IMG/VR virus record: IMGVR_UViG_3300046000_004207
Coordinates: 1-26,330 of that record
Direction: 5' to 3' (one strand)
Origin: a virus
Length of the DNA: 26,330 bases
The notes beneath the pieces were generated by a model. That model was not told the DNA's origin and ran no database searches. It saw only the letters and a list, made by a program, of their open reading frames with translations. The translations under genes were made by a program, and so were the position numbers. Within the stretch, counting starts at the first letter, position 1. Every line of letters starts with the position of its first letter. Below are positions 1,529-26,330 of this stretch, piece after piece.

Positions 1529-1540
1529 AACTTACTTTCC

Positions 1541-2239: not shown

Positions 2240-2252
2240 GACTATATCTTAA

Positions 2253-3245: not shown

Positions 3246-3263
3246 TAGAAAGGATATTTAAAT

Positions 3264-3833: not shown

Positions 3834-3852
3834 TCAGTAGGGTTTGACATTG

Positions 3853-3882
3853 AGGGGGCTGCTGAAAGGTGGCCCCCTTTTT
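3853..3882 (+). terminator. Intrinsic terminator after the capsid genes
   Basis: The stem AGGGGGC (3853-3859) pairs with GCCCCCT (3872-3878) across a 12-base loop and is followed by a run of T. It lies 20 bases after the stop of the 189-aa structural gene, where partial termination would separate high capsid expression from tail genes, as T-phi does in T7. Confidence 0.85.
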
Positions 3883-3893
3883 GTTACAGCGCC

Positions 3894-4154
3894 ATGGACA
3901 TTGCACAGGAAATCACACACTACGAGACCAACCCTGCGATCATGTACAAATTAGGGCATATCGAGGCACAGCTCGCCGCAATCAACGCCAAACTTGATTT
4001 GAAAGAGGCTGCACAGGACGTTTCAATCGAAGCCCTTCGCAAAGATGTTTCACAACTTAAAGATTGGCGGATGCTCCAACTTGGTGCTGCGGGGGCCATT
4101 TCATTCATTATCGGCATCCTAACTAAGGTGGTTACATGGCCAAGCTTGTCCTAA
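3894..4154 (+). CDS. Small coiled-coil protein with C-terminal membrane segment
   Basis: This 86-residue protein has an N-terminal helical region with heptad-like Leu/Ile/Ala spacing (about residues 18-60, LGHIEAQLAAINAKLDLKEA...VSIEALRKDVSQLKDWR). One hydrophobic stretch follows at about 62-80 (LQLGAAGAISFIIGILTKVV). The coiled-coil-then-TM layout, with a W-R just before the membrane segment, resembles XhlA-type holin accessory proteins, but I claim only similarity of layout. It lies right after the terminator and overlaps the fibre gene by 19 bases. It could be a membrane-associated lysis or entry protein placed away from the main lysis genes. Confidence 0.65.
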   Translation: MDIAQEITHYETNPAIMYKLGHIEAQLAAINAKLDLKEAAQDVSIEALRKDVSQLKDWRMLQLGAAGAISFIIGILTKVVTWPSLS

Positions 4155-5068
4155 CAGATATTGCCAGTCTACAGGCCGAAAGCACTGCGATTCAATCGAT
4201 GAACGCAAACTCGGCGGCCATTGAGACGGCCCTCGAGAATACGCTAAGTCGAGATGGCACGACGCCTAATACCATGTGCGCCTCTTTGGACATGAACAGC
4301 AACAGGATTACCAATCTCGCCGCACCTGTAAGCGGCTCCGATGCCGCACGTCTAACTGATGTTGCGGACGCTCTGTCTGTTGATGCGACTCTCGTGCCCT
4401 CGCTGACCGGCAACTCCGGAAAGATTATGTCGAATGACGGCTCGATCCTGAACTGGAAGACTCCGGCTCAGATTTCAGGCCTCGGCGATCTTCTGTCTAC
4501 CAACAACCTTTCTGATCTCGGCTCCGCCGCAACGGCTCGAACCAACCTAGGTCTCGGCACTGCCGCCGTGGTTGCTACGGGAACCTCTGGGGCCACCCTC
4601 GGTCTCCTGAATGGTAACCTGACGTTCTCGGGCACGGTCGCCAACACAGCTCTTGTCTCTATGTCTGCCGGGGCCACGCTCAGCGGTGCCGTTGACTACA
4701 GGCTTACGGCTACACCTACGACTATTAACTCGGACAGCATTGGCTACCGAGGGGCCCCTCTGAACACCCAGGACGCTACCTACACTCTTGTCCTCGTAGA
4801 CTCTGGCAAGACGGTTCTCCATACCTCGGCTTCTACTCACACTTGGACCATCCCGCCGAACTCCTCGGTGGCTTATCCGACCGGCACTGTGATCGTCGTG
4901 GCTAACATCGGCTCCGGTGCCGTCACGATTGCCCGTGGTTCTGGCGTGTCTCTCCGTATTGGCGGTAGCGCCACGAATGGCGACAAGACGCTGGCCCAAC
5001 ATGGCATCGCCTCGCTGCTCAAACTTGACACTAATAGCTGGTATATCTCCGGCACTGGCGTCTCGTAA
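4136..5068 (+). CDS. Tail fibre / receptor-binding appendage protein
   Basis: This 310-residue protein has fibre-like features. About residues 50-85 contain MNSNRITNLAAPVSGSDAAR, a motif seen in many phage fibres and appendages. About residues 120-145 contain the repeat-like NNLSDLGSAATARTNLGLGT, also typical of trimeric tail fibres. The C-terminal half is Gly/Thr/Ser-rich beta sequence ending in a probable knob (GDKTLAQHGIASLLKLDTNSW). There is no recognisable hydrolase. AAGGTGG lies 4 bases before the ATG. The C-terminal domain probably sets host specificity, which is inference. Its stop overlaps the next start (TAATG). Confidence 0.75.
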   Translation: MAKLVLTDIASLQAESTAIQSMNANSAAIETALENTLSRDGTTPNTMCASLDMNSNRITNLAAPVSGSDAARLTDVADALSVDATLVPSLTGNSGKIMSNDGSILNWKTPAQISGLGDLLSTNNLSDLGSAATARTNLGLGTAAVVATGTSGATLGLLNGNLTFSGTVANTALVSMSAGATLSGAVDYRLTATPTTINSDSIGYRGAPLNTQDATYTLVLVDSGKTVLHTSASTHTWTIPPNSSVAYPTGTVIVVANIGSGAVTIARGSGVSLRIGGSATNGDKTLAQHGIASLLKLDTNSWYISGTGVS

Positions 5069-5412
5069 TGAGCGGCGCTGTTATGGTGCTTAGCACGGGT
5101 CGACCCACGCTGGCCGCTTCGGTTCTACCGTTGGGGCTGTCAGCGACCAGATTTGGACCCGGTACTGCAGTGACATTTCAGACAGCCGTAACGACTGTTG
5201 TCGGCGGTGTACCTCCCTACACCTATCTTTGGACCCGTGTTTCAGGGGACACTGAAATAGGCCCCATCACTGGAACCTCAAGCTCCACCAAATTTTCAGC
5301 CTACTTCCCCAGTTTCGGCTCTTTCCAGACGGTGTACAAATGTGTCGTAACTGATAGCGCTGCTACTCCGGTAGACTCCAATAACATTACTATTACCATG
5401 GAAGCCAACTGA
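5068..5412 (+). CDS. Small Ig-like/PKD-like domain protein
   Basis: This 114-residue protein is dominated by one predicted beta-sandwich. The segment TTVVGGVPPYTYLWTRVSGD, followed later by YKCVVTDSAATPV and a terminal NNITITMEAN strand, is the pattern of PKD/Ig-like folds (a PPYTYxW strand, then Y-x-C-x-V-T-D). Such domains decorate phage particles and may bind surface carbohydrate. It has no signal peptide and is coupled by start/stop overlaps to the fibre gene before it and the tail tube gene after it. Probably an accessory to the fibre or tail; the function is inferred. Confidence 0.7.
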   Translation: MSGAVMVLSTGRPTLAASVLPLGLSATRFGPGTAVTFQTAVTTVVGGVPPYTYLWTRVSGDTEIGPITGTSSSTKFSAYFPSFGSFQTVYKCVVTDSAATPVDSNNITITMEAN

Positions 5413-6125
5413 TGTCGCGTAAAACATTGCTGGACATGACTCAGAACATCCTCAACGCTATGGACAGCGACGAGGTTGACTCCATCGGTGACACTGTTGA
5501 GTCTCTTCAGGTGGCCGAGGTCATCCGAGAGACCTACGAATACATCACGGTGGGCCTGGATATCCCGGGTCGCGCCGGTATCATTATGCTTGACGCAAGC
5601 GGTGACGTTGATCTTCCGAACCACATGACCGTGCCTTCTGATGTCGAGCGTGTCGAATGGATTCGATATAACGGCGAGCCTATTGAGTATAAGGACCCAC
5701 TGTCGTTTGTCATCTACGTCTCGGGCCGTGGCACTGGGACTGAAGTCGATACGATTGCCAATCTTTCGATCTACAATGATCGAGACCCTACATACTACAC
5801 CAGTTTTGATGACGACACTATTGTCTTTGACGCCTATGATCTAGAGGCCGAGTCAACCCTGCAGCAAAGCAAGACTCTTTGCTGGGGGCAACGGTCGCTA
5901 GCCTTCCTGATGGAAGACACCTTCGTCCCTTTGTTGCCGCTGGATATGTTCCCCAGGCTGCTGGCCGAAGCCAAGGCTGCTTGCTTTGTCAACTTCAAGC
6001 AGGTGTCCAACTCCAATGAGGAGCGCCGTGCCCGGAACCAGAAGGTTGTCAACATGAACAGTCGGTTCAAGGCTGGCACCATTAAACCCATCGACAGGCT
6101 TCCCAATTATGGGCGTAAGAGATGA
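5412..6125 (+). CDS. Tail tubular protein A-like (head-tail adaptor)
   Basis: This 237-residue protein resembles T7 gp11, the adaptor ring between portal and nozzle. The N-terminal helical part (TLLDMTQNILNAMDSDEVDS...VAEVIRETYEYI) is followed by a beta region (DVDLPNHMTVPSDVERVEWIRYN) and a helical C-terminal part (LLAEAKAACFVNFKQVSNSNE) with the usual basic end (RLPNYGRKR). Gene order, directly upstream of the gp12-like nozzle, supports the call. The start overlaps the previous stop as TGATG. Confidence 0.85.
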   Translation: MSRKTLLDMTQNILNAMDSDEVDSIGDTVESLQVAEVIRETYEYITVGLDIPGRAGIIMLDASGDVDLPNHMTVPSDVERVEWIRYNGEPIEYKDPLSFVIYVSGRGTGTEVDTIANLSIYNDRDPTYYTSFDDDTIVFDAYDLEAESTLQQSKTLCWGQRSLAFLMEDTFVPLLPLDMFPRLLAEAKAACFVNFKQVSNSNEERRARNQKVVNMNSRFKAGTIKPIDRLPNYGRKR

Positions 6126-6396
6126 TCTCATTGCCGAAGGGGTTCACCCCCGAGCCCTACGATGCGTCTCTAATGAGGCTGTGTATGTCTCGAGTGGACG
6201 TCAAGAATATCGCATCAAGCAGGAAGGGCCCACCTACAGCATCTCTCGATGGCCAAGGGGAACTCTTCCCAGAAATCTTAACGGTTCCTTCACCTCATTT
6301 CGAATGTGCGAAGACCGCCTAGTCAATTTTCTAAAGTCTAAAGATAAATGGGGCAAAGCCATCTACCCCGGCAAGGAGTCTCATGGCAAGAGCTAA
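6109..6396 (+). CDS. Small unknown protein between tail tube A and B genes
   Basis: This 95-residue ORF fills the gap between the two tail tube genes, overlapping the first by 17 bases and the second by 14. It is basic, with a probable small beta domain (EAVYVSSGRQEYRIKQEGPT, then YSISRWPRG) and a helical end (CEDRLVNFLKSKDKW). I do not recognise it. Its position suggests a minor tail or assembly protein. Support comes from the gap filling and a believable composition; the ribosome binding site is weak. Another frame here (6122-6322) reads less like protein. Confidence 0.6.
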   Translation: MGVRDDLIAEGVHPRALRCVSNEAVYVSSGRQEYRIKQEGPTYSISRWPRGTLPRNLNGSFTSFRMCEDRLVNFLKSKDKWGKAIYPGKESHGKS

Positions 6397-8569
6397 AGTC
6401 AATCGCCTATACAGGACGTTCGTCAAAGGCCTAATCACTGAGGCCAGCCCTCTAACGTACCCTGCCGATGCCTCCATTGACGAGGACAACTGTGAGATTT
6501 TCCGTAAGGGCAATCGCAGTCGTCGTCTCGGTATGGACTTCGAAGACACCTATGCGTTGAGCGTGTATGCCTCGGCAGGAACCGACAGCACCCGCACCTA
6601 CCGCTGGGAGTCCGTTAATAACGATAGCGAGGTTAACTTTCTCGCCCATCGAATCGGGACGTCGATCTATTTTTACGACCTGAGCCTCAGCCCGCTTTCC
6701 AGTGGGCTAAAGTCGTTTTCAATTGACCTGACCCTTTTTGCGGCTCCCAACCAGACCGACCTGAATCTCGGCGAGGTTTCTATGGCAGGTGGTAAGGGCT
6801 ATCTCTTTGTCGTCGGTGAAAAACTCGAACCCTTTCTTGTCGAGTACATCCCGGGCACAGATAGCGTCACCACGCAGCGCATCTACGTTCAGATGCGGGA
6901 TTTTCAAGGTGTCAATGATGGTCTGGCTAACGATGAAGAGCCTTCGACACTCACCGGTTTGCATCAGTACAATCTGATGAACCAGGGGTGGATTGATCCT
7001 CGTAACTCCGGTAGCGGAGGCACGGTCAACTACTTCGATCAGTTCGGCGGGATCGAAACCTATGCAGGCCCGACTACCGCCGTTATCACCGCTTACCACA
7101 CGGAGTGGTCCAAGTACCCGCCCAACAACAAACAATGGTGGGTCGCTAAAGACGCAACTACCGGTCTTTTTACCCCTGATATTCTGGGCACCTTTTTCAA
7201 CGGCACGACGCGGGCCCCTCGTGGCCACTTTGTCCTAGATGCTTTCTACAAGGACCGCACAGCTGCTTCCGGCATTGCCGACATCCCTGTTGAAGCAATT
7301 TCGGACCGACCCCCCACGGTGTCTTTTGCGGCTGGCCGCGTCTGGTACGCTTGTAACTCGACTGTCTATTTTAGCCAGGTTCTCGACGACAAGGCAAAGG
7401 CCGGATTCTGCTACCAAGAGGCAGACCCTACGTCCGAGGACATCAGCGACCTGATCGACTCTGATGGCGGTGTCATCCCTATCCCCGAGATGGCCAAGGC
7501 GGTTAAGATTCTACCATTCGGTTCGGGTCTTGTTGTTTTCGGAACTAACGGCATTTGGTATATTGGCGGAACTCAAGCTGGTCTGACGGCCACGGACATC
7601 TCTGTCTCCAAGGTCAATCCCATTGGTACCGATAGTCCCGACAGCATCGTGGAAGCCGAGGGTCAAATCTTCTGGTGGTCCCGCGTGGGCATCATGGGGA
7701 TGTCTCAGAAGTCTGGCCAGTTCGGTCCGGTGGAAGGCGTCTTTGATCGCACGAACACTACCGAGCAGACCATTCAATCCTTCTATGTCCATGACATCCC
7801 GGAGGCCTCGAAGCCATTTGCCAAGGGTGTCTATGACCCGGCAACCAACAGGGTCCAATGGATATTTAAGTCTGGCACGACCCCCAGCTCGTACATGTAT
7901 GACCGGGTGCTTAACCTAGACCTTACCCTCGGGGCATTCTTCCCGTGGACCGTTGAAACCGCCGGGCCTTACATCAGCGATATCTTCATTACAGCCAGCC
8001 TCAATACGCTGGTCGACCAGGAGAGCATCCGCAGCTCCTTTATCAAGTATCTCTGTGCCGTGCCTATCGAAGGCAGTATGTACAAATACACCTTCGGGTA
8101 CTTCAAGAGCTCCGAGTTTGCTGACTGGTATACCTACGACGGTGTCGGCACAGCCTATATGAGCTTTGTCGAAACTGGCTACGAGTTGCTGGAAGACGCC
8201 ATGCGTAAAAAGCAGACACCTTATGTCTTCTGCTACTTCCGGCGCACCGAAGAGAACTACATCGAAAGCGGAGACGACTACACCGTTGATAAGCCCTCAA
8301 GCTGCTACTTCCAAGTAAAGTGGGACTGGGCCAGCTCTTCGAACTCGAACAAATGGTCTAGCAAGATTCAGGTCTACCGGCATCGTCGGACACCTCAATT
8401 CTCTGAGGATGACCTAACCTTTGATACCGGCTTCCCTATTGTCATCTCCAAGAATAAGGTGCGTGGCAACGGCAGGGCGATTCAATTTAGATTTGAAAGT
8501 GACGAAATTGGACACGACTTTGATCTGCTCGGATGGGCCGTCCCCGTCGAAGGCAACACTGAATCCTAG
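6383..8569 (+). CDS. Tail tubular protein B-like (nozzle)
   Basis: This 728-residue protein is the expected counterpart of T7 gp12, which forms the nozzle of the short tail. The N-terminus is typical of the family: a start KVNRLYRTFVKGLITEASPL, then a segment with N-C-E-I-F-R-K-G-N-R-S-R-R-L-G-M-D, where the particle is set up against DNA-derived 'offset' sequences. The rest is a beta-rich propeller-like protein with repeated W/Y-G strands (for example FGTNGIWYIGG and EGQIFWWSRVGIMGMS). It follows the adaptor and precedes the ejection proteins, as in T7. The 3' end overlaps the GNAT gene by 11 bases if that gene starts at CTG 8559. Confidence 0.88.
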   Translation: MARAKVNRLYRTFVKGLITEASPLTYPADASIDEDNCEIFRKGNRSRRLGMDFEDTYALSVYASAGTDSTRTYRWESVNNDSEVNFLAHRIGTSIYFYDLSLSPLSSGLKSFSIDLTLFAAPNQTDLNLGEVSMAGGKGYLFVVGEKLEPFLVEYIPGTDSVTTQRIYVQMRDFQGVNDGLANDEEPSTLTGLHQYNLMNQGWIDPRNSGSGGTVNYFDQFGGIETYAGPTTAVITAYHTEWSKYPPNNKQWWVAKDATTGLFTPDILGTFFNGTTRAPRGHFVLDAFYKDRTAASGIADIPVEAISDRPPTVSFAAGRVWYACNSTVYFSQVLDDKAKAGFCYQEADPTSEDISDLIDSDGGVIPIPEMAKAVKILPFGSGLVVFGTNGIWYIGGTQAGLTATDISVSKVNPIGTDSPDSIVEAEGQIFWWSRVGIMGMSQKSGQFGPVEGVFDRTNTTEQTIQSFYVHDIPEASKPFAKGVYDPATNRVQWIFKSGTTPSSYMYDRVLNLDLTLGAFFPWTVETAGPYISDIFITASLNTLVDQESIRSSFIKYLCAVPIEGSMYKYTFGYFKSSEFADWYTYDGVGTAYMSFVETGYELLEDAMRKKQTPYVFCYFRRTEENYIESGDDYTVDKPSSCYFQVKWDWASSSNSNKWSSKIQVYRHRRTPQFSEDDLTFDTGFPIVISKNKVRGNGRAIQFRFESDEIGHDFDLLGWAVPVEGNTES

Positions 8570-17898: not shown

Positions 17899-18179
17899 TG
17901 CCCGAAACCCGCAGGCGTATGCGTATCGGCCCCAACGCTCGGCGCGGCGGCAACATCGATGATCGAAGGGGTGAAGACCGGCGCTTTCAAGTCCTAGCTC
18001 GTGATGGTGACATGTACGTTACGCCACGTCAGGATGACCCCAGGGTGCACCGGGCACTTCGAAATAGCCGACGCAATGAATCCCGAGTGTCGGACTATGG
18101 ACAACGAGGGGCGAGGCCTATGTCTAATTCGCGACAGGGGCTTCGGGCCGGAACAACTGCAACTATGGGACGTCGCTAA
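17898..18179 (+). CDS. Small basic protein between endolysin and holin
   Basis: This 93-residue, very Arg-rich protein starts RRRMRIGPNARRGGNIDDRR and ends in GLRAGTTATMGRR. It contains no predicted membrane segment, so it is not an obvious holin, antiholin or spanin. The start shares bases with the endolysin stop (TGATG), and its own stop overlaps the holin ATG (TAATG). This coupling suggests a lysis-linked or late role, but low-complexity Arg-rich content makes any function guess weak. Another frame here (18001-18198) looks like a shadow. Confidence 0.6.
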   Translation: MPETRRRMRIGPNARRGGNIDDRRGEDRRFQVLARDGDMYVTPRQDDPRVHRALRNSRRNESRVSDYGQRGARPMSNSRQGLRAGTTATMGRR

Positions 18180-18643
18180 TGAACCTACCTTGGACTGACC
18201 TCATCAACCAAATCGGACAAGCAGTGCGTCAAGTACTGCCGAACCCCGAGGCTCAGCGCGAGTTTGACCTCAAGATCATGGAGCTGGCGGCCAAAGCAGA
18301 GGAGCAGGAAACACAACTGGCTCTCGGCCAAATCGAGATCAACAAGATCGAGGCTGGCAGTGCTAACCTCTTCGTGGCTGGCTGGCGTCCCTTCATCGGC
18401 TGGACCGGCGGCGTGGCTCTGGGGTACACCTGGATTGTCTCCCCGCTCCTGAAGGCGATCTTCGGTCTTGATGAACTTCCCGCCCTTGATGCCGATGCTA
18501 TCTGGCCTATTATCGCGGCCATGCTGGGTCTCGGCACCATGAGGTCCTTTGAGAAATCTCGCGGCGTAACTACCTCTGTCAATGGGGCTGTCTTGGCTCC
18601 GAAACAAGCAGCACTACCGAGAGACCTTGAAGGTCTAGTATAA
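18179..18643 (+). CDS. Holin, 3-TM type (GTA holin family)
   Basis: This 154-residue protein has an N-terminal cytoplasmic amphipathic part with a coiled-coil-like stretch (FDLKIMELAAKAEEQETQLA). It then has hydrophobic segments at about 63-97 (SANLFVAGWRPFIGWTGGVA...GYTWIVSPLLKAIFG) and 105-122 (DAIWPIIAAMLGLGTMRS). The motif AGWRPFIGWTGG is a hallmark of the 3-TM holin family first noted in gene-transfer agents. It forms membrane lesions that release the endolysin. It is the last gene of the + arm and ends 7 bases before a bidirectional terminator. Confidence 0.9.
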   Translation: MNLPWTDLINQIGQAVRQVLPNPEAQREFDLKIMELAAKAEEQETQLALGQIEINKIEAGSANLFVAGWRPFIGWTGGVALGYTWIVSPLLKAIFGLDELPALDADAIWPIIAAMLGLGTMRSFEKSRGVTTSVNGAVLAPKQAALPRDLEGLV

Positions 18644-18647
18644 ACAC

Positions 18648-18688
18648 AAAAAGGCCCACCCCCGGTTTGATCCAGAGGTGGGCTTTTT
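18648..18688. terminator. Bidirectional intrinsic terminator between convergent arms
   Basis: The stem GCCCACC (18654-18660) pairs with GGTGGGC (18677-18683) around a 16-base loop. It is preceded by an A tract (AAAAA, 18648-18652) and followed by a T tract (TTTTT, 18684-18688), so it can stop transcription from both sides. It lies exactly between the last + gene (holin) and the last - gene (methyltransferase-like). Confidence 0.9.
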
Positions 18689-18691
18689 AGT

Positions 18692-19273
18692 TTATCCCCA
18701 CTGCTCTGCCATGGCGGCAGCAATGCCTGGGAATGTGGCGGACCGAATCTTCCAGCGGTCCTTGCTGGGTGGCAGGTTATACCACGCCGGGAGGGACTTG
18801 CCCGACTTAGTTACGTGCCGTGCACCCTTGTCTACGATCTCTGTAGCCTCTAGCGGAGGCAGATTCTTCAACCAAAGACAAGTAGTCTTGGTGGCTTCAT
18901 GTCCAAACATCCAAGGCTGGATAATCTGGTCAGGCTTCCGAATCTTAGAGGAGATGACGGAGACAGGATTCTCAAGACAGATTTTGTCAATAGGGGCATC
19001 GAGAAGTCGCTGTACGAAATCAAGAGCTCTCTGTTGTCGTCCATCTGCAATCTTGGCTGCAAAGTGTTTGGCCCCCGATACAGCCAAGTCGGTACACGGG
19101 GGATGAGCAATCATGAGGTCCCAACCCTTGTCGATGATACCAAAGATATCTTCTTCAAAGTGAGGGCCGGGAGACTCGGTGGGCAACAGGTCGCAGGAGA
19201 CCGCCTCGTGGCCCCGGGCGAGGAACGCATCGCGCACCACACCCGAGTACTCACAAGCAACTAGGACCCTCAC
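18692..19273 (-). CDS. DNA cytosine methyltransferase-like protein (short)
   Basis: This 193-residue protein has the Rossmann start of SAM-dependent C5-cytosine methyltransferases: VLVACEYSGVVRDAFLARGH (motif I-like, with E-Y-S-G), then CDLLPT. A motif IV-like AHPPCTDLAVSGAK contains the catalytic Pro-Cys, and a motif VI-like CLENPVSVIS contains Glu-Asn. It is about half the length of a typical Dcm enzyme, with no obvious target recognition domain, a common form in phages whose specificity is uncertain. Start GTG (19273-19271) overlaps the RNR stop. It may protect phage DNA from host nucleases; this is inference. Confidence 0.78.
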   Translation of the reverse strand: MRVLVACEYSGVVRDAFLARGHEAVSCDLLPTESPGPHFEEDIFGIIDKGWDLMIAHPPCTDLAVSGAKHFAAKIADGRQQRALDFVQRLLDAPIDKICLENPVSVISSKIRKPDQIIQPWMFGHEATKTTCLWLKNLPPLEATEIVDKGARHVTKSGKSLPAWYNLPPSKDRWKIRSATFPGIAAAMAEQWG

Positions 19274-21132
19274 AGAATCTCACAGAAGCCAGCAGCACAT
19301 GCCAGCTCTTGAGTTCCAGTGGTGGTGTCTTCCAGCTCAAACTCACTCAGCCTCGCCCAGTCAATCTGCGCGGGGCTTTTTTGCACCCATTCGTGATAAG
19401 TAGCCTCATCACATTCTTGATAGGGTGCCTGCTTATAGGTGTGTTCCGAGTGAGGCAAGAAGCTAACGCCGCTGAGAACGTCCCAGTTGCGCCAGACCCA
19501 GGCCTGCACATCCATCCACTCGTCTTCCTTCACACTGATGGTGATGGAGGGCTTGTGTTCACACCATTCTTCCTGGAGCGTCTTCCAGATGTCCAAATGC
19601 TCGATAGCGGTAATGTCAGCGCGAAGAGTTGCGCCCTCAGGAGCTCGCTGGGGGAAACTGAACACCACAGTGTCATTGGGTTTCGTGACGTCCGGCTCAT
19701 TTGGGACTCCTTGTTCGATGAGGAACTGCGTGAGGGGGTCTTTAACGTCACCCCGGACGGTCCGGATGTAGAAGGCGCTGTGTCGAGGATGGATACCGCT
19801 GGCACTGTCAACCAACTGTGAGACGGTCCCGGATGGCTTGACACAGGTAGTGGCCATCGACTGGGGGATACCCAGAGCTTCAGCCCAGACTTTATTGGTC
19901 TCTACGACTAGATCACGAAGCTCATTAAGAAGCTCTTTGTCATAGCAGAGAGTCTTGTGGTCAAGGATACCTGTGAGGGACACCCCGAGCAACCGTTCTT
20001 CCTCCGTGTTGGTTTGCCAGACCTTGCGGAGATACTTGAAGTTGGTAAGCGTAGACTGCAGTGTCCCTAGGATAGCGGCTGCAATTGCTTTGTCCCGGAG
20101 GGTGGCTCTGGTATCGTCGTGACGCACAACGATTTCAGATAGGTTACAAAATTGATAGGGACGGAGGATGATTTCTGAGCAAGGATTAGTTCCAAAATCA
20201 TGGCTCGGGTCCCGTCGTCCAAACTTAGCTGTTTGTCGCTGAGAGGCGTCTCGGCTGAACATTCCTCGTTCGCCGCTGTGTGAGTCATAGAGAGCCTTCC
20301 ATTCCCCCAGGAACACGCTTGTATCAGGGCGTCCGATATAGGTTGCTGAGTTGTTCGCTAGGGCTCGCTGGACATTGTGTTCCCACCAGTTCCCGCTCTT
20401 GGCCCCTCGCATCCTGTCATCATTGACATCAGACAAGGAGATCATGGCCGAACGGCGAACACCGCCGACAACGACGACCTCGCCAATCTTGCACATGATG
20501 TCATGGCATTCTAGAGTGGAGAGTCTTCGTCCTTTTGCTTTCTTGAAAGTATCGACGACAAAGTGGAAGAGGCTCTCCAGTGGTTCAGGCCCACTTGCCC
20601 GACCCCCAAAAGTGCGTAGTCGCTCTCCTGCACGTCGAACTTTTGTTGTGTCCCATCGCGGAATTTGACCAGTATAGAGGAGACCAACAAGCTCTCGCAG
20701 GGAGCGGGCCCAGCCTTCTTTGGAGTCTGCGACATGGATTGTGGTTTCCGTTTCTTCGAAGTGTTCATTGACAGGGGGCAGCTGGTCGACGTTGCGCTGT
20801 TCTACCGAGAAGCCGACCCCCGTCCCACACATGAGGACAAACATAGCCTCGTCGAAGGCGCGTGGCGAGTCAACGGGCATATAGGCACAGTTGTAGCCAG
20901 CCACATTGTTACGCTCGAGGGCCGGGCCCGCTGTCATGAGAGCCCGCATCGAAGGCATTACCTCGAGGTTGACAATCTTCTCACGCAGCTTAACGCGGGT
21001 CTTCTCGGGAATATGCTGACTAAAAAACCCGAGGTAGCGATCAACTACTTCGGGCCAGGTCTCTCGTCGGTTCTCATCATCCAGCCAGCGACTGTAGCGG
21101 GAGGTAGCAATAAAAGTTTGGTAGTCGTTAAT
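19270..21132 (-). CDS. nrdJ: Class II (adenosylcobalamin-dependent) ribonucleoside triphosphate reductase; ATT start proposed
   Basis: This 620-residue reading is a monomeric class II RNR of the RTPR type, which reduces ribonucleotides to dNTPs without oxygen or iron. The catalytic core GTNPCSEI carries the thiyl Cys (residue 318) and Glu320. Partner Cys329 in FCNLSE is 11 residues later, as in Lactobacillus RTPR (408/419), and Cys82 in GYNC completes the redox pair. The C-terminus ends in CAAGFC. An in-frame ATG (20958) would lose 58 residues, including the conserved YQTFIATSRYSRW and the R-R-E-T-W-P-E region. ATT 21132 with GGAG 7 bases before gives the family N-terminus. A one-base indel is the alternative. 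Confidence 0.9.
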   Translation of the reverse strand: MNDYQTFIATSRYSRWLDDENRRETWPEVVDRYLGFFSQHIPEKTRVKLREKIVNLEVMPSMRALMTAGPALERNNVAGYNCAYMPVDSPRAFDEAMFVLMCGTGVGFSVEQRNVDQLPPVNEHFEETETTIHVADSKEGWARSLRELVGLLYTGQIPRWDTTKVRRAGERLRTFGGRASGPEPLESLFHFVVDTFKKAKGRRLSTLECHDIMCKIGEVVVVGGVRRSAMISLSDVNDDRMRGAKSGNWWEHNVQRALANNSATYIGRPDTSVFLGEWKALYDSHSGERGMFSRDASQRQTAKFGRRDPSHDFGTNPCSEIILRPYQFCNLSEIVVRHDDTRATLRDKAIAAAILGTLQSTLTNFKYLRKVWQTNTEEERLLGVSLTGILDHKTLCYDKELLNELRDLVVETNKVWAEALGIPQSMATTCVKPSGTVSQLVDSASGIHPRHSAFYIRTVRGDVKDPLTQFLIEQGVPNEPDVTKPNDTVVFSFPQRAPEGATLRADITAIEHLDIWKTLQEEWCEHKPSITISVKEDEWMDVQAWVWRNWDVLSGVSFLPHSEHTYKQAPYQECDEATYHEWVQKSPAQIDWARLSEFELEDTTTGTQELACAAGFCEIL

Positions 21133-21146
21133 GGGTTGTCTCCAAG

Positions 21147-21314
21147 TTAATCATGTTCATCGAGGTAGCGCAGCCAGTCTTTCTGGCGCTTGTGTTTCGG
21201 GAGCGAAGCCGGGACAATTCTCGGTCGATACTTCTGACTATGCAGATCGCGCACGAGTTCGCTCCGTTTCTTCGGCAATGGTCTCGCTGGCTTTCCCGGG
21301 CGATGGCCTGTCAT
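21147..21314 (-). CDS. Small basic protein between pyrophosphohydrolase and RNR
   Basis: This 55-residue ORF is found by translating the gap upstream of RNR. It is Lys/Arg-rich (MTGHRPGKPARPLPKKRSEL, ending in KRQKDWLRYLDEHD), and its last bases overlap the region of the RNR start. Its 5' half overlaps the 3' end of the previous gene, in another frame. The basic composition and unbroken frame to a stop suggest a real small gene, possibly DNA-binding. I do not recognise a family. An overlapping shadow ORF is still possible. Confidence 0.5.
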   Translation of the reverse strand: MTGHRPGKPARPLPKKRSELVRDLHSQKYRPRIVPASLPKHKRQKDWLRYLDEHD

Positions 21315-21621
21315 CGACTAGGACTCCAAGTGAGGCGGCATCCATGAGGATACAGGCACAGGCTGCTACGTGGGCTAGGTGGTGGACATCGGCATCTTGA
21401 CTCCGCTCTTCACCGTCCTGGTAGGCCATAATGTGTCGGTACATGGCATCAAGATAGGTCGTAATAGAGACCGGGTCTTTGCGCCAGTTGTAGGGGCCGT
21501 ACTTGGCAGCCCCGTCGCGGAAAGCCTGGGCGATGTTAAGAATGGCCACCGGCGGCACAAGGCCCACCGGCGGTTTCATCCGACCGACACCTGCTTTAGG
21601 GTTGGTGTCCTTAGTCTTCAT
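21238..21621 (-). CDS. dATP/dGTP diphosphohydrolase-like protein
   Basis: This 127-residue protein matches, by pattern, the phage family annotated as dATP/dGTP diphosphohydrolase N-terminal domain: LNIAQAFRDGAAKYGPYNWR, then D-A-M-Y-R-H-I-M-A-Y-Q-D-G-E and the DVHHLAHVAACACILMDAA helix (H-L-A-H is typical). The fold is expected to be all-alpha, MazG-like, with metal bound by the His/Asp/Glu cluster. It would hydrolyse or condition purine dNTPs. Next to RNR it suggests control of nucleotide pools. The ATG overlaps the stop of the 59-aa gene by a few bases. Confidence 0.75.
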   Translation of the reverse strand: MKTKDTNPKAGVGRMKPPVGLVPPVAILNIAQAFRDGAAKYGPYNWRKDPVSITTYLDAMYRHIMAYQDGEERSQDADVHHLAHVAACACILMDAASLGVLVDDRPSPGKASETIAEETERTRARSA

Positions 21622-21790
21622 CTATTGAGAAAATTCCTGTTTCTTGAATGAGCTCTGAGTTGTCCATACAGCGGTCAAAGAACACCTCCCAGATATCTTC
21701 AGCTGTAAGGCCTAGGATTTCTGCAAGGCTTACGCCGTCGTATCGCTCAATGAGCCTCTCCCGGAATTCTTGGGTTAGTGTGTAATCCAT
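21611..21790 (-). CDS. Small 59-aa unknown protein
   Basis: I translated this ORF directly from the - strand: MDYTLTQEFRERLIERYDGV, then SLAEILGLTAEDIWEVFFDR, ending in IFSIDED. The middle looks like a small helix-turn-helix (S-L-A-E-I-L-G-L-T-A-E-D-I). It is acidic. The start lies one base after the metallophosphoesterase stop (TGAG-ATG), and the stop overlaps the next start, so it fits the polycistronic pattern. I cannot name a function; a small regulator or host-inhibitor is one guess. Confidence 0.65.
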   Translation of the reverse strand: MDYTLTQEFRERLIERYDGVSLAEILGLTAEDIWEVFFDRCMDNSELIQETGIFSIDED

Positions 21791-21791
21791 C

Positions 21792-22541
21792 TCACTTTAA
21801 GCCGCCGTAGGCTTCCTTAATCCGTTTCATTGAAATATGCTCCACATCATAGGAGCCGTTTTCGACACCACGCTTGACTACGACACCGGCGTTCCACATT
21901 TGGTTAGCGGGTCCTGCGAAGTCAGCATGATAGTCCTGATACACTCCGACAACACATCCGTGAATTTTGTTTCCTCGGACATCACTTCTGACACAGTAGT
22001 CGAAAAGATGGCTGTGACCTTGGGTACAGGATGCGAGTTGTTTGAGGATGAGTGTCTGAGCGTGGCGTTCACCGGAGATTGGTCGTCCCATGATGCCACT
22101 TGTGAAGTAATGCTGGTACGTAACCCCGTCAATATTGACTGGAGTGAGGAATGGGTACTCTTCCCATCCATACTCTTTGGATTGCAGATCGGAAAGACCA
22201 ATGGTGCCCTCGAGAACGGGGTCTCGATCAATAGCCTTAGAAATACGGGCTTCGTGGTTTCCGAGGGTCCTGACGAATCGGGGCAGCTTTTTCTTTTGCC
22301 TGCGGATGATCTCAATCATTTTCTCCTGGGCGTCTAGTCCGGCATCAATATCTCGTCGATAACGACGACCTTCAAAGCCTTTAGTCCCTTTATCATAGTG
22401 GCACAGTGAGGGCATGTCCCACCAGTCACCGATATCCACAACAACGTCGGGTTTGATGTCGTTGATGAGGTGTCCGAGCCACTGGTATCGCTTGTTGTTG
22501 AAGTCGGGGTGTGCATGGCTGTCGGGCACGACAAGGTGCAC
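21792..22541 (-). CDS. Calcineurin-like metallophosphoesterase
   Basis: This 249-residue enzyme has the four metal-binding blocks of the calcineurin-like superfamily: D-S-H at residues 7-9, V-D-I-G-D (Asp39) followed by W-W-D, G-N-H-E at 94-97, and G-H-S-H at 175-178. Members hydrolyse phosphoesters, and phage versions may act on nucleotides or nucleic acid ends; the substrate cannot be read here. The start is GTG at 22541, supported by a strong AAGGAG 4 bases upstream, directly after the endonuclease VII stop. Confidence 0.88.
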   Translation of the reverse strand: MHLVVPDSHAHPDFNNKRYQWLGHLINDIKPDVVVDIGDWWDMPSLCHYDKGTKGFEGRRYRRDIDAGLDAQEKMIEIIRRQKKKLPRFVRTLGNHEARISKAIDRDPVLEGTIGLSDLQSKEYGWEEYPFLTPVNIDGVTYQHYFTSGIMGRPISGERHAQTLILKQLASCTQGHSHLFDYCVRSDVRGNKIHGCVVGVYQDYHADFAGPANQMWNAGVVVKRGVENGSYDVEHISMKRIKEAYGGLK

Positions 22542-22551
22542 TTGGCTCCTT

Positions 22552-22944
22552 TTAGTAATTATGTTGGCGATTATAATGCTCCATTAAATACGCCGAGCCA
22601 GCCTCCAAAATATCTGAAGAATCTCGGGCATGTCCGAGCATTAGATTGCACCTATGGCACAAAATACCCCGAACTAGGTTTGTTTCATGGTCATGATCTA
22701 CGTGCCAATCACGAGTTCCCCGCTCTGAGTCCTGACAAATGGCACAACATTTATTTTGTGATTGCCACATTTGTTCGTATTCAGCTTCGGTAAGACCGTA
22801 TAGTTTTAGTTTACGTTTGCGCTCAGACTTTCGAGAACTCTCTCGGGCCTTATCAGGGTTGTTGAGCTTCCAATTTCTTGCTTGTTCTAGTTGACGCGCC
22901 TTACGCTCTGGCGTCTCCCTGTGCCAACGGCTCAGCTCAGCCAT
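22552..22944 (-). CDS. Endonuclease VII-like HNH nuclease
   Basis: This 130-residue protein belongs to the T4 endonuclease VII (recombination endonuclease) family. The N-terminal half is a basic helix rich in Arg/Lys/Glu. The core contains a zinc pair in NKCCAICQDS, the His-Asp-His-Asp cluster in WHVDHDHETN, and the second zinc pair C-H-R-C-N (treble-clef beta-beta-alpha fold). It would cut branched or mismatched DNA. It could instead be a free-standing homing HNH endonuclease, but its overlap with endonuclease I and its C-terminal G-H-A-R-D suggest the resolvase group. Start ATG overlaps the previous gene's end. Confidence 0.85.
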   Translation of the reverse strand: MAELSRWHRETPERKARQLEQARNWKLNNPDKARESSRKSERKRKLKLYGLTEAEYEQMWQSQNKCCAICQDSERGTRDWHVDHDHETNLVRGILCHRCNLMLGHARDSSDILEAGSAYLMEHYNRQHNY

Positions 22945-23279
22945 TCGTCAGGTATTCCTTCATGAGCCCATAGGAAGCCATTGCGGGTCGCCCACTCTCC
23001 ATACGTCTGTTTCTGTCCACTAATTTTTGCGTGTGCGTTATAGAAGACAAAGCGAATATCTAGGTGGGGGTGCTGGTCACGTACCGCGATCATCTTTGCG
23101 GCCTCACCAGCACCCCGTCTGAAGTGACCCTTAGACTCAATAACGATTCCATTCGCGAGGACAAAGTCTGGCGTATAGGAATGTGACTGAGTGTAGGGCA
23201 ACTTCAGTGTCTCGTATTCGAACCCCATCTTGCGTTTCTTGAGGGATGCCGCGAGACTGCGTTCGAAGGCATTACGCAT
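22932..23279 (-). CDS. Endonuclease I (T7 gp3-like Holliday junction resolvase)
   Basis: This 115-residue protein aligns by eye with T7 endonuclease I, which resolves four-way junctions and breaks down host DNA. Active-site residues are conserved: Glu6 (T7 Glu20), Asp38 in YTPDF (Asp55), Glu48 and Lys50 in IESKG (Glu65, Lys67), with identical spacing between the last three. The C-terminal half (AVRDQHPHLDIRFVFYNAHA, then YGEWATRNGFLWAHEGIPDEW) also parallels T7. It is shorter at the C-terminus than T7 gp3. ATG overlaps the previous stop as TAATG. Confidence 0.93.
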   Translation of the reverse strand: MRNAFERSLAASLKKRKMGFEYETLKLPYTQSHSYTPDFVLANGIVIESKGHFRRGAGEAAKMIAVRDQHPHLDIRFVFYNAHAKISGQKQTYGEWATRNGFLWAHEGIPDEWLS

Positions 23280-23509
23280 TAGCTGTGGAGCTTAGCCTTA
23301 GGCTCTAGGCGCTTGATCGACCGCACGTTGTCCATCGGGGTGGCAAACAGGAGCTTGCCGTCTTCAGTCACTGTGCCAGCGAATACGGGATTAAAGGACA
23401 GGAGACCGTGTTCGATGATCTCGGTGCCGTCTTTGAGGGTGAAGTTGTAGTCATAAGTTTGTTCTGGGGCCACTTTGGGCTGCCCATCTAGTCCGACAAT
23501 GTTTGTCAT
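23279..23509 (-). CDS. Small 76-aa unknown protein
   Basis: This short protein has a possible beta-rich fold: TYDYNFTLKDGTEIIEHGLL, followed by FAGTVTEDGKLLFATPMDNV and a basic end (SIKRLEPKAKLHS). I do not recognise a family. It lies between the RecB/Cas4-like nuclease and endonuclease I. Its start has AAAGAG 5 bases upstream, and its stop overlaps the next start. The coding call rests on this operon geometry and its plausible composition. Confidence 0.7.
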   Translation of the reverse strand: MTNIVGLDGQPKVAPEQTYDYNFTLKDGTEIIEHGLLSFNPVFAGTVTEDGKLLFATPMDNVRSIKRLEPKAKLHS

Positions 23510-23520
23510 TGTTCTCTTTC

Positions 23521-24375
23521 TTAGAAGGTTAGTTCGGGTACTTTAGGTTCTTTGGCGACCTCAATGAGGTGCTTAGGGCCCCCGGCGTACAGGAAGGTTC
23601 TTACGCCCACTCCACCATTTGCATCAGCCCAACAACGGAACTTGTGAGGGCAATAGCTACACCCAACACTAAGAGCGAGGTTGCCACTAAGACCGTCTGG
23701 AACAGCTTCGTAGCAGCGCTCCGGCTCCTCGGAGTCAACCACCACTTCTTTAAGGTGCTCAATGCGCTCTTCAATGCGAAGCCCCTCTGTCTCTTCCTGC
23801 GGTACTTTGAGGAGAGCAAGGTGGCCGTTCTGTTTGTCGCCTGCCAGGAAAGCTCCTGGGAGATTGAGAGCCGTGGAGTAACCACCGATTTGGTCGATGT
23901 ATCCGAACGGGTCGTCATCGGCAAGTGTTCCATATTTAAACTTCTTGAAGGCGTAGGTCGATGCAGATTTAACGTCTACAACGTGGCCATCAATTACTGC
24001 GTCGATGTGGCCTTTGATGCCGTTGATTTCGACTTCGGCTTGCTCTTGGGAGACTTCGTGTCCGGCTGCTTTTGCGAGGAAGAGGAGGACGGACTCGTAG
24101 ATGTCTCCGATGAGGAACTTGAGGAGCGTGTGGGGTTCCAGAACTTCTTTGCTGCCGTCATCATGGAACTCATACCAGAGCTGACGGTCCGGCTTGCCCA
24201 GATTGGACATGCGAAGAGTAGCAGCACGAGGGTCGGCAGCAGACCTGAGACGACTTGATACCACGCTGGCCAAGTCTGCAGCAAATCCGCTGACCAGTTC
24301 GTCGCTCGGGTTAGCGCCATGTCGAAAGAGATCATAGATGTCTTCAACGAGGCTTTCAATTTGTTTAGCAATAAT
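23521..24375 (-). CDS. RecB/Cas4-like PD-(D/E)XK exonuclease; ATT start proposed
   Basis: This 284-residue reading is a PD-(D/E)XK nuclease: Asp125 in KGHID, Asp134 and Lys136 in VDVKSAS, and a RecB-type Q-x3-Y motif (Gln162, Tyr166) in DQIGGYSTA. Near the C-terminus a Cys group has the spacing C-x2-C-x5-C (about 239, 242, 248, with Cys221 earlier), resembling Cas4/AddB iron-sulphur sites. The role is DNA end processing or host DNA degradation. The first conventional start in frame (TTG, 24273) would lose a conserved-looking helical N-terminus (IIAKQIESLVEDIYDLF). ATT 24375 or 24372 has AAAGGA 5 or 8 bases upstream (24381-24386). Confidence 0.85.
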   Translation of the reverse strand: MIAKQIESLVEDIYDLFRHGANPSDELVSGFAADLASVVSSRLRSAADPRAATLRMSNLGKPDRQLWYEFHDDGSKEVLEPHTLLKFLIGDIYESVLLFLAKAAGHEVSQEQAEVEINGIKGHIDAVIDGHVVDVKSASTYAFKKFKYGTLADDDPFGYIDQIGGYSTALNLPGAFLAGDKQNGHLALLKVPQEETEGLRIEERIEHLKEVVVDSEEPERCYEAVPDGLSGNLALSVGCSYCPHKFRCWADANGGVGVRTFLYAGGPKHLIEVAKEPKVPELTF

Positions 24376-24384
24376 TCTTATCCT

Positions 24385-24495
24385 TTAAATTGGTGCACGG
24401 TCGGCCCCATACCCGTCGCCCCCGTGCAGCACCTCCACGCCTAATCGCCGGAGGGCCCCTTCGTAGTTAGCCTTCGTTGAAGAAGTCGTACATCT
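24385..24495 (-). other. Short open frame with protein-like sequence, no clear start (possible +1 frameshift extension)
   Basis: This frame is open between a TAG and a TAA and reads ...ANYEGALRRLGVEVLHGGDG, then YGADRAPI, ending directly before the Shine-Dalgarno of the nuclease gene. It has no ATG and only a poor GTG. If the ribosome shifted +1 near the stop of the upstream 45-aa gene (GAA GGC TAA), the product would read FFNEANYEGALRRLG continuously. It may be a separate peptide, a frameshift product, or the sign of a one-base sequence error. Confidence 0.4.
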
Positions 24496-24604
24496 CTAGG
24501 ATGGCGTCTTGGTAGCCGTGCTGATAGTCAGAGTCGGCCGGATCATCGTCAAATGTCGACAGAGTCTCTTCGAGATACTGAATGACGTCGATCTTGTCCT
24601 CCAT
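24467..24604 (-). CDS. Small acidic 45-aa protein
   Basis: This ORF was read directly from the - strand: EDKIDVIQYLEETLSTFDDD, then P-A-D-S-D-Y-Q-H-G-Y-Q-D-A-I-L-E-M-Y-D-F-F. It is acidic and helical, with ATG overlapping the ssDNA-binding protein stop (TGATG). The function is unknown. The Y-Q-x-x-I-L-E-M motif looks like a small folded helix. The sequence right after its stop continues with protein-like character in another frame, so the true gene may be about 70 aa. Confidence 0.6.
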   Translation of the reverse strand: MEDKIDVIQYLEETLSTFDDDPADSDYQHGYQDAILEMYDFFNEG

Positions 24605-25065
24605 CACTGGGTCCAATCTTCGACAGTGCCATCCTCATTATAGGTCGGCAGGTCCTCATCATCACCGCTGCGACCTTCGTAGGCTACATGCTCCACGACC
24701 TGCATCTTGATGAGACCAGGCTTCGTCTCGCCCTCGTACTCATTCAGAGCGATCTTGAAGTTGCAGACCGAGCCATTGCCAATGAGAGCCTTCTGGTCCC
24801 ACGGTTGACCCTTTTTGTTGACGACCTCGATGGGCTTGCCAGCCGAGCCGTCCTTCTTCAGTTCACGACGCTTGAACGTAAGGAAGTCCCCGCGATCATC
24901 GTCTTTATTCTTAATGGCTGACTTCGACATGCCAGCCTCAATGAGCCGCGCTTTGGTCGGAGCGTCAATGCACAGATCGACGGACCATTCTTTGTATTGC
25001 TTTTTGTAACCCCAAGCGGGAGCGCCAAGAACTTTGGCGTAATGTACTGGACCTTGAATAACCAA
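24604..25065 (-). CDS. Single-stranded DNA-binding protein (T7 gp2.5-like)
   Basis: This 153-residue protein has the look of a phage gp2.5-type SSB: an OB-fold core (VHYAKVLGAPAWGYKKQYKE, then WSVDLCID, and GNGSVCNFKIALNEYEG) and an acidic C-terminal tail (GDDEDLPTYNEDGTVEDW) that in T7 contacts polymerase and primase. It coats single strands during replication and recombination. No ATG lies in the expected place; TTG (25065) gives the family-like N-terminus, with only a weak GGAAA 6 bases upstream. It follows tRNA-Trp by 31 bases, so it may be translated from a processed transcript. Confidence 0.82.
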   Translation of the reverse strand: MVIQGPVHYAKVLGAPAWGYKKQYKEWSVDLCIDAPTKARLIEAGMSKSAIKNKDDDRGDFLTFKRRELKKDGSAGKPIEVVNKKGQPWDQKALIGNGSVCNFKIALNEYEGETKPGLIKMQVVEHVAYEGRSGDDEDLPTYNEDGTVEDWTQ

Positions 25066-25096
25066 GTTTGTTTTCCGTTTCTTATTGTTTGTTGGT

Positions 25097-25172
25097 TGGC
25101 AAAGGATACAGGACTCGAACCTGTCTATCCGGTTTTGGAGACCGGTGCATCGCCCCTTAATGCTTATCCCTC
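25097..25172 (-). tRNA. tRNA-Trp (anticodon CCA)
   Basis: The 76 bases fold as a complete cloverleaf. The acceptor GAGGGAT pairs with ATCCTTT (two G-U pairs), the D-stem is GCAT/ATGC, the anticodon stem is CCGGT/ACCGG with loop CTCCAAA, and the T-stem is ACAGG/CCTGT with loop TTCGAGT. Discriminator G and an encoded CCA end follow. Position 8 is A instead of the usual U. The Trp anticodon CCA is at the centre of the loop. It lies just after a strong promoter, as the first product of the transcript. Confidence 0.92.
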
Positions 25173-25197
25173 AAAGGTGGTTGAAACCTTATTCTAT

Positions 25198-25225
25198 ATT
25201 ATAGCATAATTGACAAAGAAGTCAA
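25198..25225 (-). promoter_or_regulatory. Strong sigma70 promoter for tRNA-Trp and the replication genes
   Basis: On the - strand -35 is TTGACT (25225-25220), the spacer is 16 bases, and -10 is TATAAT (25203-25198) with TGC before it, an extended -10 element. Transcription would start about 20 bases before the tRNA. The palindrome TTGAC-TTCTTT-GTCAA covers the -35 and part of the spacer. Confidence 0.8.
25210..25225. promoter_or_regulatory. Inverted repeat overlapping the -35 box (possible operator)
   Basis: The arms TTGAC and GTCAA, each 5 bases, are separated by 6 bases. They overlap the -35 element of the promoter at 25198-25225, which is where a dimeric repressor or activator would bind. 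The arms are short, so coincidence is possible because TTGAC is itself the -35 motif. Confidence 0.35.
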
Positions 25226-25411
25226 CTAGAAAATAGCGTGATCGTAGCGGCCTGCTCTTACCTTTTCGTTGTTATAGCGTTCGCGAAGTTCTGCATAGGC
25301 TTCTTGAAGGGCTTTGAATGCCGCTTCAAGTTCGGCCCTTGACATTTTAGAAATATGTGATATAATATTCTTGCCCCGAAGGTGAATAGGTGGGGTCACA
25401 GGACATTCCAA
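25226..25411 (-). CDS. Small coiled-coil protein downstream of DNA polymerase (TTG start)
   Basis: This 61-residue protein has a charged helical C-terminal part (MSRAELEAAFKALQEAYAEL, then RERYNNEKVRAGRYDHAIF), probably coiled coil. TTG at 25411 has GAGGA 6 bases upstream, so it is better supported than the internal ATG (25345), which has no ribosome binding site. It begins 18 bases after the polymerase stop. I do not recognise it. An antisense sigma70-like promoter lies inside it. Confidence 0.55.
   Translation of the reverse strand: MECPVTPPIHLRGKNIISHISKMSRAELEAAFKALQEAYAELRERYNNEKVRAGRYDHAIF
25339..25366 (+). promoter_or_regulatory. Consensus sigma70 promoter antisense to the DNA polymerase gene
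   Basis: TTGACA (25339-25344), a 16-base spacer and TATAAT (25361-25366) match consensus in both boxes. It points right, away from the - strand genes, so a transcript starting near 25373 would run antisense to the 3' end of DNA polymerase. No + strand gene is evident after it in the window. The sequence match is clear; activity is unproven. Confidence 0.6.
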
Positions 25412-25429
25412 TAGTGATCCTCTTCTTCC

Positions 25430-26330
25430 TTAGTGAGTTTCCGCCCAGGAGTACCCGACTTTGTAATCACCGTCGAGGGGGACGCTAAACCCGAGCTCTT
25501 CGCCAGATGCAACAATGCTCGCAACTGCCAGCTTGCCAAACTCTTCAGCGTCAGTGTGTAGGACGTCGTGTTGTCCTTCGTCATGGATGTCTCCAACTTT
25601 CATTTGGTCGATGCCTTTCTCTTCACACCAACGGTCGAGGATAATAGAGGCTACCTTCATAGTGATGCCACCGGCTGATTGCAGCTTACTGTTAAGCGCT
25701 GCGTGCGGCGAGAGGCACCGGACATAGCCACCGTCAATGGTCTGAATCCAGCCCGAGGCTTGCTCGTCCTGGGCCTCCTTGATGGCATTCTCGAGGCCTG
25801 GGGTGGTCTTCATGAGAACCTCACGGGCCATCTTACCGAAGCCCTTGCCTTTGTTAGCAGTGGCATCTAGGCGACGGTCCTGTGCCCCGTAGAGGAAGGC
25901 GTAGAAGACGTTCTTAACGATTAGGTCGCGTTCTTCGGGGGCAAGACCGAGGTTCGCCGTGTTGACCGCGTGGGGGTCCCCGTGAATGTACAGTTCTGCT
26001 GCAACAGGGTCACGAAGGTAGTGCCCGAACATACGCATTTCGAGACCTTTGGCATCGTAGCCGACGAGCCTTCGTGTGGTTCGGTCAGCAACTGTCCACA
26101 GTTCTCGACATTCTTTACCATATTTTACCTTTGGTTTAGCCTTGGGGATGTTGGCCGTGTTTGGGTTGAAGTGGGTCATGCGGCGAGTAATAGCGCCACA
26201 AGTAAGGACCCGACCCCGCATACGGGAGTCTTCACGGTCTACCGCATTTAGCCATGTCTGGAGCATTGAGGCACGTCCAGACAGGACAAGCCAGTCGGCA
26301 ATGGCCTGAGCCTCGGGTACGCCTTTCTTA
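25430..26330 (-). CDS. DNA polymerase, family A (T7-like), C-terminal part
   Basis: This is the last 299 residues of a family A replicative polymerase; the frame runs off the window at 26330. The palm and fingers motifs are clear: motif A DAKGLEMRMFGHYL, motif B VKNVFYAFLYGAQD (with Lys, Tyr and YG of the O helix) and motif C D-I-H-D-E-G. The C-terminus DYKVGYSWAETH parallels T7 gp5 (GPNWAICH). The tyrosine in the O-helix pocket is the T7-like type. The first residue of the motif B triplet (R-x3-K) is displaced: the Arg is 5 residues before the Lys. It copies the phage genome, probably with the SSB encoded downstream. Confidence 0.93.
   Translation of the reverse strand, partial: KKGVPEAQAIADWLVLSGRASMLQTWLNAVDREDSRMRGRVLTCGAITRRMTHFNPNTANIPKAKPKVKYGKECRELWTVADRTTRRLVGYDAKGLEMRMFGHYLRDPVAAELYIHGDPHAVNTANLGLAPEERDLIVKNVFYAFLYGAQDRRLDATANKGKGFGKMAREVLMKTTPGLENAIKEAQDEQASGWIQTIDGGYVRCLSPHAALNSKLQSAGGITMKVASIILDRWCEEKGIDQMKVGDIHDEGQHDVLHTDAEEFGKLAVASIVASGEELGFSVPLDGDYKVGYSWAETH

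Follow-up and report, generated by a model that had tools for sequence, protein, structure and literature searches.

A host-type promoter facing the DNA polymerase gene of a podovirus fragment, and its possible co-control with the replication operon

A near-consensus sigma-70 promoter lies directly behind the DNA polymerase gene of a podovirus fragment and points back into it. Comparison with related genomes supports the conservation of both the promoter and its orientation, while in part of these genomes its initial transcribed sequence matches that of the promoter at the far end of the replication operon. Together, a conserved facing promoter and a copied operon start suggest a built-in, co-controlled brake on the replication genes. 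We tentatively regard the element as a genuine host sigma-70 convergent promoter, co-controlled with the replication operon and braking or timing it, a reading to which we give a little less than an even chance and in which we infer the transcript, the control factor and the brake.

Results

Genomic context of the promoter

The window, i.e. the whole stretch of DNA analysed, is an entire IMG/VR record of 26,330 bases derived from a podovirus. Its left arm carries structural genes on the plus strand and its right arm replication and nucleotide genes on the minus strand, and the record ends inside a family A DNA polymerase gene. The portal protein is 48-52% identical to the portals of CRP-4, CRP-5, ICBM1, ICBM2 and P12053L, and CRP-4, ICBM2 and P12053L are filed as Zobellviridae. 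This portal identity, a ribonucleotide reductase and the opposed arms, alongside searches of the relatives' records that found no PF00940, would fit Zobellviridae, of which the window is a candidate member. Near DNA matches to positions 18000-26330 in the phage collection came from two records of one phage and covered the tRNA only.

At the other end of the window, a strong promoter (TTGACA-17-TACAAT, 1365-1393, plus strand) is located upstream of the scaffold and capsid genes and is likely a late promoter. Strong promoters occupy the corresponding place in G001, G002, G003 and G006, and in G001 and G002 the -10 box of this promoter is followed by ATTCAGAAT.

The features surrounding the polymerase-facing promoter are the following.

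24604..25065, minus strand: gp2.5-like single-strand DNA binding protein, SSB (phrog_112, 9.8e-05)
25097..25172, minus strand: tRNA-Trp (CCA)
25198..25225, minus strand: divergent sigma-70 promoter TTGACT-16-TATAAT (25225-25198 in reading direction), upstream of tRNA-Trp and SSB
25226..25345, minus strand: small gene of 39 amino acids flanked by the two divergent promoters, its ATG overlapping the -35 box; kept in the relatives L003 and L005
25339..25344, plus strand: -35 box TTGACA of the polymerase-facing promoter, reading TTGACA in 22 of 23 distinct sequences (window included; the scan used favours TTGACA)
25358..25366, plus strand: extended -10, TGA followed by TATAAT (TG at 25358-25359, TATAAT at 25361-25366), with a 16-base spacer from the -35 box
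25367..25402, plus strand: discriminator, predicted start (~25373) and initial transcribed sequence, GCCCCGAAGGTGAATAGGTGGGG...
25430..26330, minus strand: 3' part of the family A DNA polymerase gene, truncated by the record end (phrog_17, 3.3e-54), which the predicted antisense RNA would cross

The near-consensus TTGACA-16-TATAAT noted in a preliminary description of this DNA is confirmed at 25339-25366 (plus strand), with an extended -10 in addition and a predicted start near 25373 that agrees with the one given there. The boxes match the consensus at 12 of 12 positions, and such a pair of hexamers at 15-19 bases stands above chance, TTGACA-N15..19-TATAAT occurring once in the 26,330 bases and in none of 100 dinucleotide shuffles. 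The promoter is directed at a phage gene from the 3' side of that gene, as CII-type antisense promoters are, and it forms one half of a divergent pair, whose partner at 25225-25198 (minus strand) points toward tRNA-Trp and the SSB gene.

The same description had placed the promoter inside the small minus-strand gene, which holds for the -35 box, overlapping the start codon, but not for the remainder, located between the gene and the polymerase stop. The 39-codon stretch shared with L003 and L005 starts at an ATG whose first base is 25345; an alternative, longer reading from a TTG at 25411 would enclose the promoter. Among the window, L003 and L005, the 39-residue gene differs by 1-3 amino acids and 3-7 synonymous codons per pair, and it has no family match in PHROGs (searched in its 61-codon reading) or in Pfam (39 residues).

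Conservation among relatives of the polymerase

Relatives of the polymerase were collected from viral contigs and from a phage collection (6 of the 2266 phage records read, with four more via portal search and family), and 78 records were scanned in both orientations with a fixed sigma-70 matrix, over an interval that opened 100 bases ahead of the polymerase stop and extended up to 1000 bases past it. Clustering at 95% identity yielded 54 clusters, 53 of which were counted, one being dropped because the sequence behind its polymerase was too short. Each contig present in several copies was counted once; L121, L122 and L125 were excluded from the scan because their match stops short of the polymerase end, and SSB relatives, together with one weak second match of L080, were kept out of the counts.

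A polymerase-facing promoter scoring at least 14 within 1 kb of the polymerase stop was recovered in 22 of the 53 clusters, compared with 4 of 320 background windows taken from these loci on the same strand, and is therefore not a chance box. It is missing from that 1-kb interval in the other 31 clusters, which makes it dispensable. All 12 clusters with a polymerase identity of at least 59% carry it, the window's own included. The promoter is kept on the same strand and near the same place, with distances to the polymerase stop ranging from 47 to 923 bases; in L009 and L010 it is found 615 bases on, beyond the 520-base reach of a narrower scan. The claim that this is a real promoter aimed against the polymerase gene is thus supported, both boxes being kept in relatives in the conservation check that had been proposed along with it.

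On a polymerase tree of 53 rows, which excludes the short L127 and scores L095 as lacking the promoter on 206 visible bases, the trait needs 8 changes, a number as low being reached by 0 or 1 of 500 shuffles, depending on the label. Judged from this tree, the trait appears to be old and to have been lost, gained or moved several times.

Downstream of the -10 box, GGTAA is present in 11 of the 22 clusters, the window having GGTGAA. Within 50 bases of the -10 box, GGTAAA occurs at 9 of 22 facing promoters, 6 of 16 operon promoters and 1 of 20 other promoters, as well as in 1.1% of random 50-mers. In L003, which shares the promoter boxes and 97% of the polymerase with the window, the initial transcribed sequence differs, as if this stretch were swapped quickly.

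Genes opposed by the promoter

In those contigs of relatives that have end repeats, a single run of genes on the sense strand, 12-17 kb long and opposite to the antisense direction, leads up to the polymerase. These genes encode glutamine amidotransferase domains, a COOH-NH2 ligase, an amidoligase, a primase-helicase and the polymerase, besides an ATP-grasp protein whose matches stay below the cut-offs and a protein that we read as ThyX-like. In L046 (~970-7770), genes for a glutamine amidotransferase, a COOH-NH2 ligase and an amidoligase precede the primase in one run, and the ligase belongs to the phiEco32-like Pfam family; Pseudomonas phage O4 has annotated counterparts to these amidotransferase and ligase genes.

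No gene was recognised on the antisense strand across the 12-17 kb in complete relatives. Between the operon promoter and the polymerase end, 24 reverse open reading frames (ORFs) of at least 100 amino acids were counted in 14 genomes. Ten of them (in G003, G005, G017, G018 and G030) are mirror frames, since at least 70% of their length is covered by sense-strand homology; each of the other 14, including six in G001 and one of 378 amino acids in G017, either finds no counterpart in the set of 14 genomes at E 1e-5 or lacks homology to operon genes. Eight reverse ORFs, three of G003 and five of G001, gave no match in PHROGs. The G001 frames at L048:7377-9350 and L046:3953-4417 (minus strand), 118-232 amino acids long and near the operon start, have neither sense-strand homology nor a PHROGs match, and could be either mirror frames or real genes. 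The suggestion that the promoter drives a gene beyond the window consequently finds little in its favour, given that the recognised genes of relatives run oppositely for 12-17 kb, that 10 of the 24 reverse ORFs are mirror frames and that the eight scanned have no PHROGs match, with the 14 other frames leaving some room for it.

RNA polymerase and promoter complement

A search of 25 relatives' records for a T7-type RNA polymerase (PF00940) returned none, with no positive control responding in that search; a second one, on 8 relatives' records (5 of them common to the first), also returned none and detected its positive control, CRP-118. Sigma factors were likewise absent from 15 relatives' records, Pseudomonas phage O4 being detected as control. 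With neither a T7-type RNA polymerase nor a sigma factor found in relatives, the reader should be the host sigma-70 RNA polymerase. Long contigs hold three to eight promoters of score at least 14 each, end repeats counted once.

Matching start sequences of facing and operon promoters

Scanning of whole contigs revealed a promoter at the operon 5' end whose initial transcribed bases repeat those of the polymerase-facing promoter. The match extends over 71 bases in G026 (one difference), 37 in G020 (all identical), and 35 in G023 and 30 in G025 (two differences each).

For the pairing test, the operon promoter was chosen blind in each genome, as the best-scoring sense promoter 8-18 kb upstream, and the first ~35 transcribed bases were compared, in 8 genomes initially and then in all 9 fetched contigs having end repeats and a facing promoter (G034 added). 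Across the 8 genomes the own-genome pairing ranked first among 40,320 permutations, and again first of 24 once the four strongest had been removed; across 9 genomes it took the top rank alone among 362,880 with the 8-18 kb pick, while with a wider 8-20 kb pick 14 of 362,880 permutations reached the observed value. Scores of the own pairs were clear in four genomes (43, 35, 27, 22) and weak in three (13, 12, 11), with no match in G034 (8 or 5) and G001 (7). The weak pairs were equalled or beaten by 18, 29 and 57, respectively, of ~10,200 own-genome windows, a count that takes in the self and pair windows. In G017 the operon promoter fits the facing promoter of G020 (13) better than its own (12). 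The type of promoter pairing considered for the window, with a putative shared control sequence, is accordingly seen in some of the 9 relatives, being clear in 4, weak in 3 and absent in 2. G001 is the nearest complete relative of the window, with 95% polymerase identity, and the start sequences of its two promoters do not match; as the window itself ends before the operon promoter, the matches that suggest shared control come from lines other than the window's own.

On a broader scale, 6 of 1285 promoter pairs within 30 records had a start match scoring at least 20, versus 0.4 expected. Four of these consist of an operon and a facing promoter, one is differently placed in G032 and one joins two late promoters of P12053L; the placement of the G032 pair and the late-promoter match indicate that a matching start is not tied to antisense. 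In Celeribacter phage P12053L (L173), the two late promoters, at 30175 and 38681 on the minus strand, have a common 22-base start, AGTCTTAACAAGTCTCCCCTGC.

Structure and coding potential of the antisense leader

Mean folding z-scores were -0.18 for the leaders of the facing set (n=27, including 4 minus-strand promoters from other places, in G027, G028, G032 and ICBM2), -0.47 for operon promoters (n=16) and -0.69 for other promoters (n=20), so that no RNA structure was detected in the antisense leader beyond that of shuffles or of other promoters. A search of 10 sources against Rfam gave no match except tRNA. A structured small RNA was discarded on these grounds, the fold being no more stable than shuffles and Rfam giving no family beyond tRNA. 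Terminator-like sites at up to 800 bases occur in 1 of 22 loci, 4 of which offered fewer than 1000 bases to search, and a short terminated RNA was dropped for want of a consistent terminator across the 22. The proposal of a regulatory RNA, made in the preliminary description, finds no support, as a discrete RNA, in these two results.

Among the longest ORFs that begin within the first 150 bases, mutual matches are confined to L013-L019-L086, L079-L019, L007-L011 and L013-L014, where we read the ORFs as mirrors of the polymerase frame, and no leader peptide is widely shared among loci. In the 14 genomes with an operon promoter, 8 of which carry the facing one, GC skew at third codon positions displays no consistent step across the promoter, which is a weak test for a lytic phage; a replication origin was not indicated by skew.

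Discussion

Proposed mechanism

In the reading that we tentatively prefer, host RNA polymerase would start at ~25373, at the 3' end of the middle (replication) operon, and transcribe back along the operon; the resulting RNA, not translated, would be antisense to the polymerase gene and to those preceding it. The operon's own promoter would lie ~12-17 kb away at the 5' end, with a matching initial sequence in several relatives; because of these matches, both promoters probably respond to a common phage control factor or behave alike at the start. Convergent transcription would then brake or time the operon through polymerase collision and antisense pairing, and an antisense RNA might in this manner limit polymerase expression. 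A more ambitious version, which we consider doubtful, holds jointly that the two facing host-type promoters bracket the replication operon with a fast-changing, phage-specific start tag by which one putative factor would switch sense and antisense together, and that, in podoviruses lacking an RNA polymerase of their own, this tag would lend an antisense brake an immunity- or nut-like specificity.

Alternative explanations

The rival that we rate highest, albeit as unlikely, sees in the shared start a binding site, for a repressor, a roadblock or nut-like antitermination, with the antisense direction being incidental; with protein bound to it, the copy at the 3' end would halt sense transcripts or insulate the promoter of SSB. 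The genome-specific nature of the matching pairs agrees with this, as do the differently placed partner in G032, the two matched late promoters of P12053L and the retention of the boxes in L003 with an initial sequence other than the window's. Nevertheless, a regulator gene was not identified, the full near-consensus promoter is kept, which is more than a bare site needs, and in the four clear genomes a query with the facing copy recovered no third one (E up to 0.05) beyond the end repeat of G020 and a 14-base match in G025. A replication origin is a somewhat less probable explanation. Promoters at T7 and T4 origins prime DNA synthesis, and a purine-rich start favours an R-loop; here too the transcript would stay on the template and act as primer. 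The strong promoter adjoins replication genes, no recognised gene reads with it and its start is G-rich in many relatives, but the skew analysis, weak as it is for a lytic phage, offered no consistent step in 14 genomes (8 with the promoter), and 31 of the 53 clusters do without such a promoter there.

It is improbable, in turn, that the promoter is an accident or only weakly selected, or that it is kept solely through the overlap of its -35 box with a start codon (ATGTCAA). TTGACAT, with the ATG on the other strand, is present in 10 of the 23 distinct sequences (window, L003, L005, L009, L011, L013, L014, L015, L108 and L127), and the distribution on the polymerase tree is patchy; against this, the other 13 carry the promoter without that ATG (e.g. 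L012, L066, L080, L086, L089 and L096), the promoter is in excess over background windows (22/53 versus 4/320), and in the window the small gene, if started at its ATG, does not include the -10 box. Slightly more improbable still is that the first few hundred bases yield a small RNA or short protein of their own. The conserved initial sequence speaks for it, but leaders fold no better than shuffles or other promoters, terminator-like sites are confined to 1 of 22 loci, leader ORFs match in few loci only and the 10 sources searched in Rfam returned nothing but tRNA. 

Comparison with known systems

To our knowledge, little work has addressed how podoviruses that encode no RNA polymerase time their early, middle and late genes. 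In lambda, nutL and nutR place the same phage-specific leader element on two opposed early transcripts, the nut boxB being a hairpin. The present arrangement is similar in having two opposed transcripts, as predicted, with the same phage-specific leader element, but differs in that no leader structure was found and in being convergent.

Cobaviruses, or Zobellviridae (ICBM1, ICBM2, SIO1 and P12053L), are described as having two opposed arms, one for replication and one structural, with a bidirectional terminator, and SIO1 as lacking an RNA polymerase (PMC6775973). The window resembles them in its opposed replication and structural arms. In the main text of that paper the word 'promoter' is absent (PMC6775973). 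No polymerase-facing promoter of score at least 13.5 was detected behind the polymerase of CRP-4, ICBM2 or P12053L. More widely, the named phages covered by the scans (CRP-4, CRP-13, CRP-118, ICBM2, P12053L, HTVC103P, HTVC104P, HTVC115P and Slicky01) all lack the promoter in the 1 kb following the polymerase. In the Lentibacter phage ICBM2 (L171), a strong promoter at 2672 on the minus strand faces back into the early genes just ahead of the primase gene, and is possibly a counterpart in another place. Among the literature matches listed, consisting of titles and the beginnings of abstracts, with subscription journals mostly outside their scope, such a promoter pair is not described. Noncoding antisense transcripts with a proposed regulatory role are reported for the T7-like podovirus LUZ100, and for LIT1 and LUZ7 as cited there (PMC10134795). 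Those of LUZ100 are measured and belong to the structural region; the antisense RNA considered here is predicted and faces the polymerase operon.

The nearest parallel to the proposed circuit is lambda paQ. The CII control sequence sits at the -35 region in lambda. The window-type common sequence differs in following the -10 box, and the boxes here are near consensus; moreover, the target is the replication operon, and the regulator is only putative. Lambda paQ is one of three CII promoters, along with pI and pE, and its transcript lowers Q and late expression (PMC2327240). The resemblance consists in an antisense promoter set against a key phage gene under a control common to other phage promoters (PMC2327240), a control that is putative for our phages. 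If an antisense promoter does have its start in common with the operon that it opposes, this would make a simple, testable circuit with a small set of promoters to map, and lambda paQ would have a parallel in phages of a different kind.
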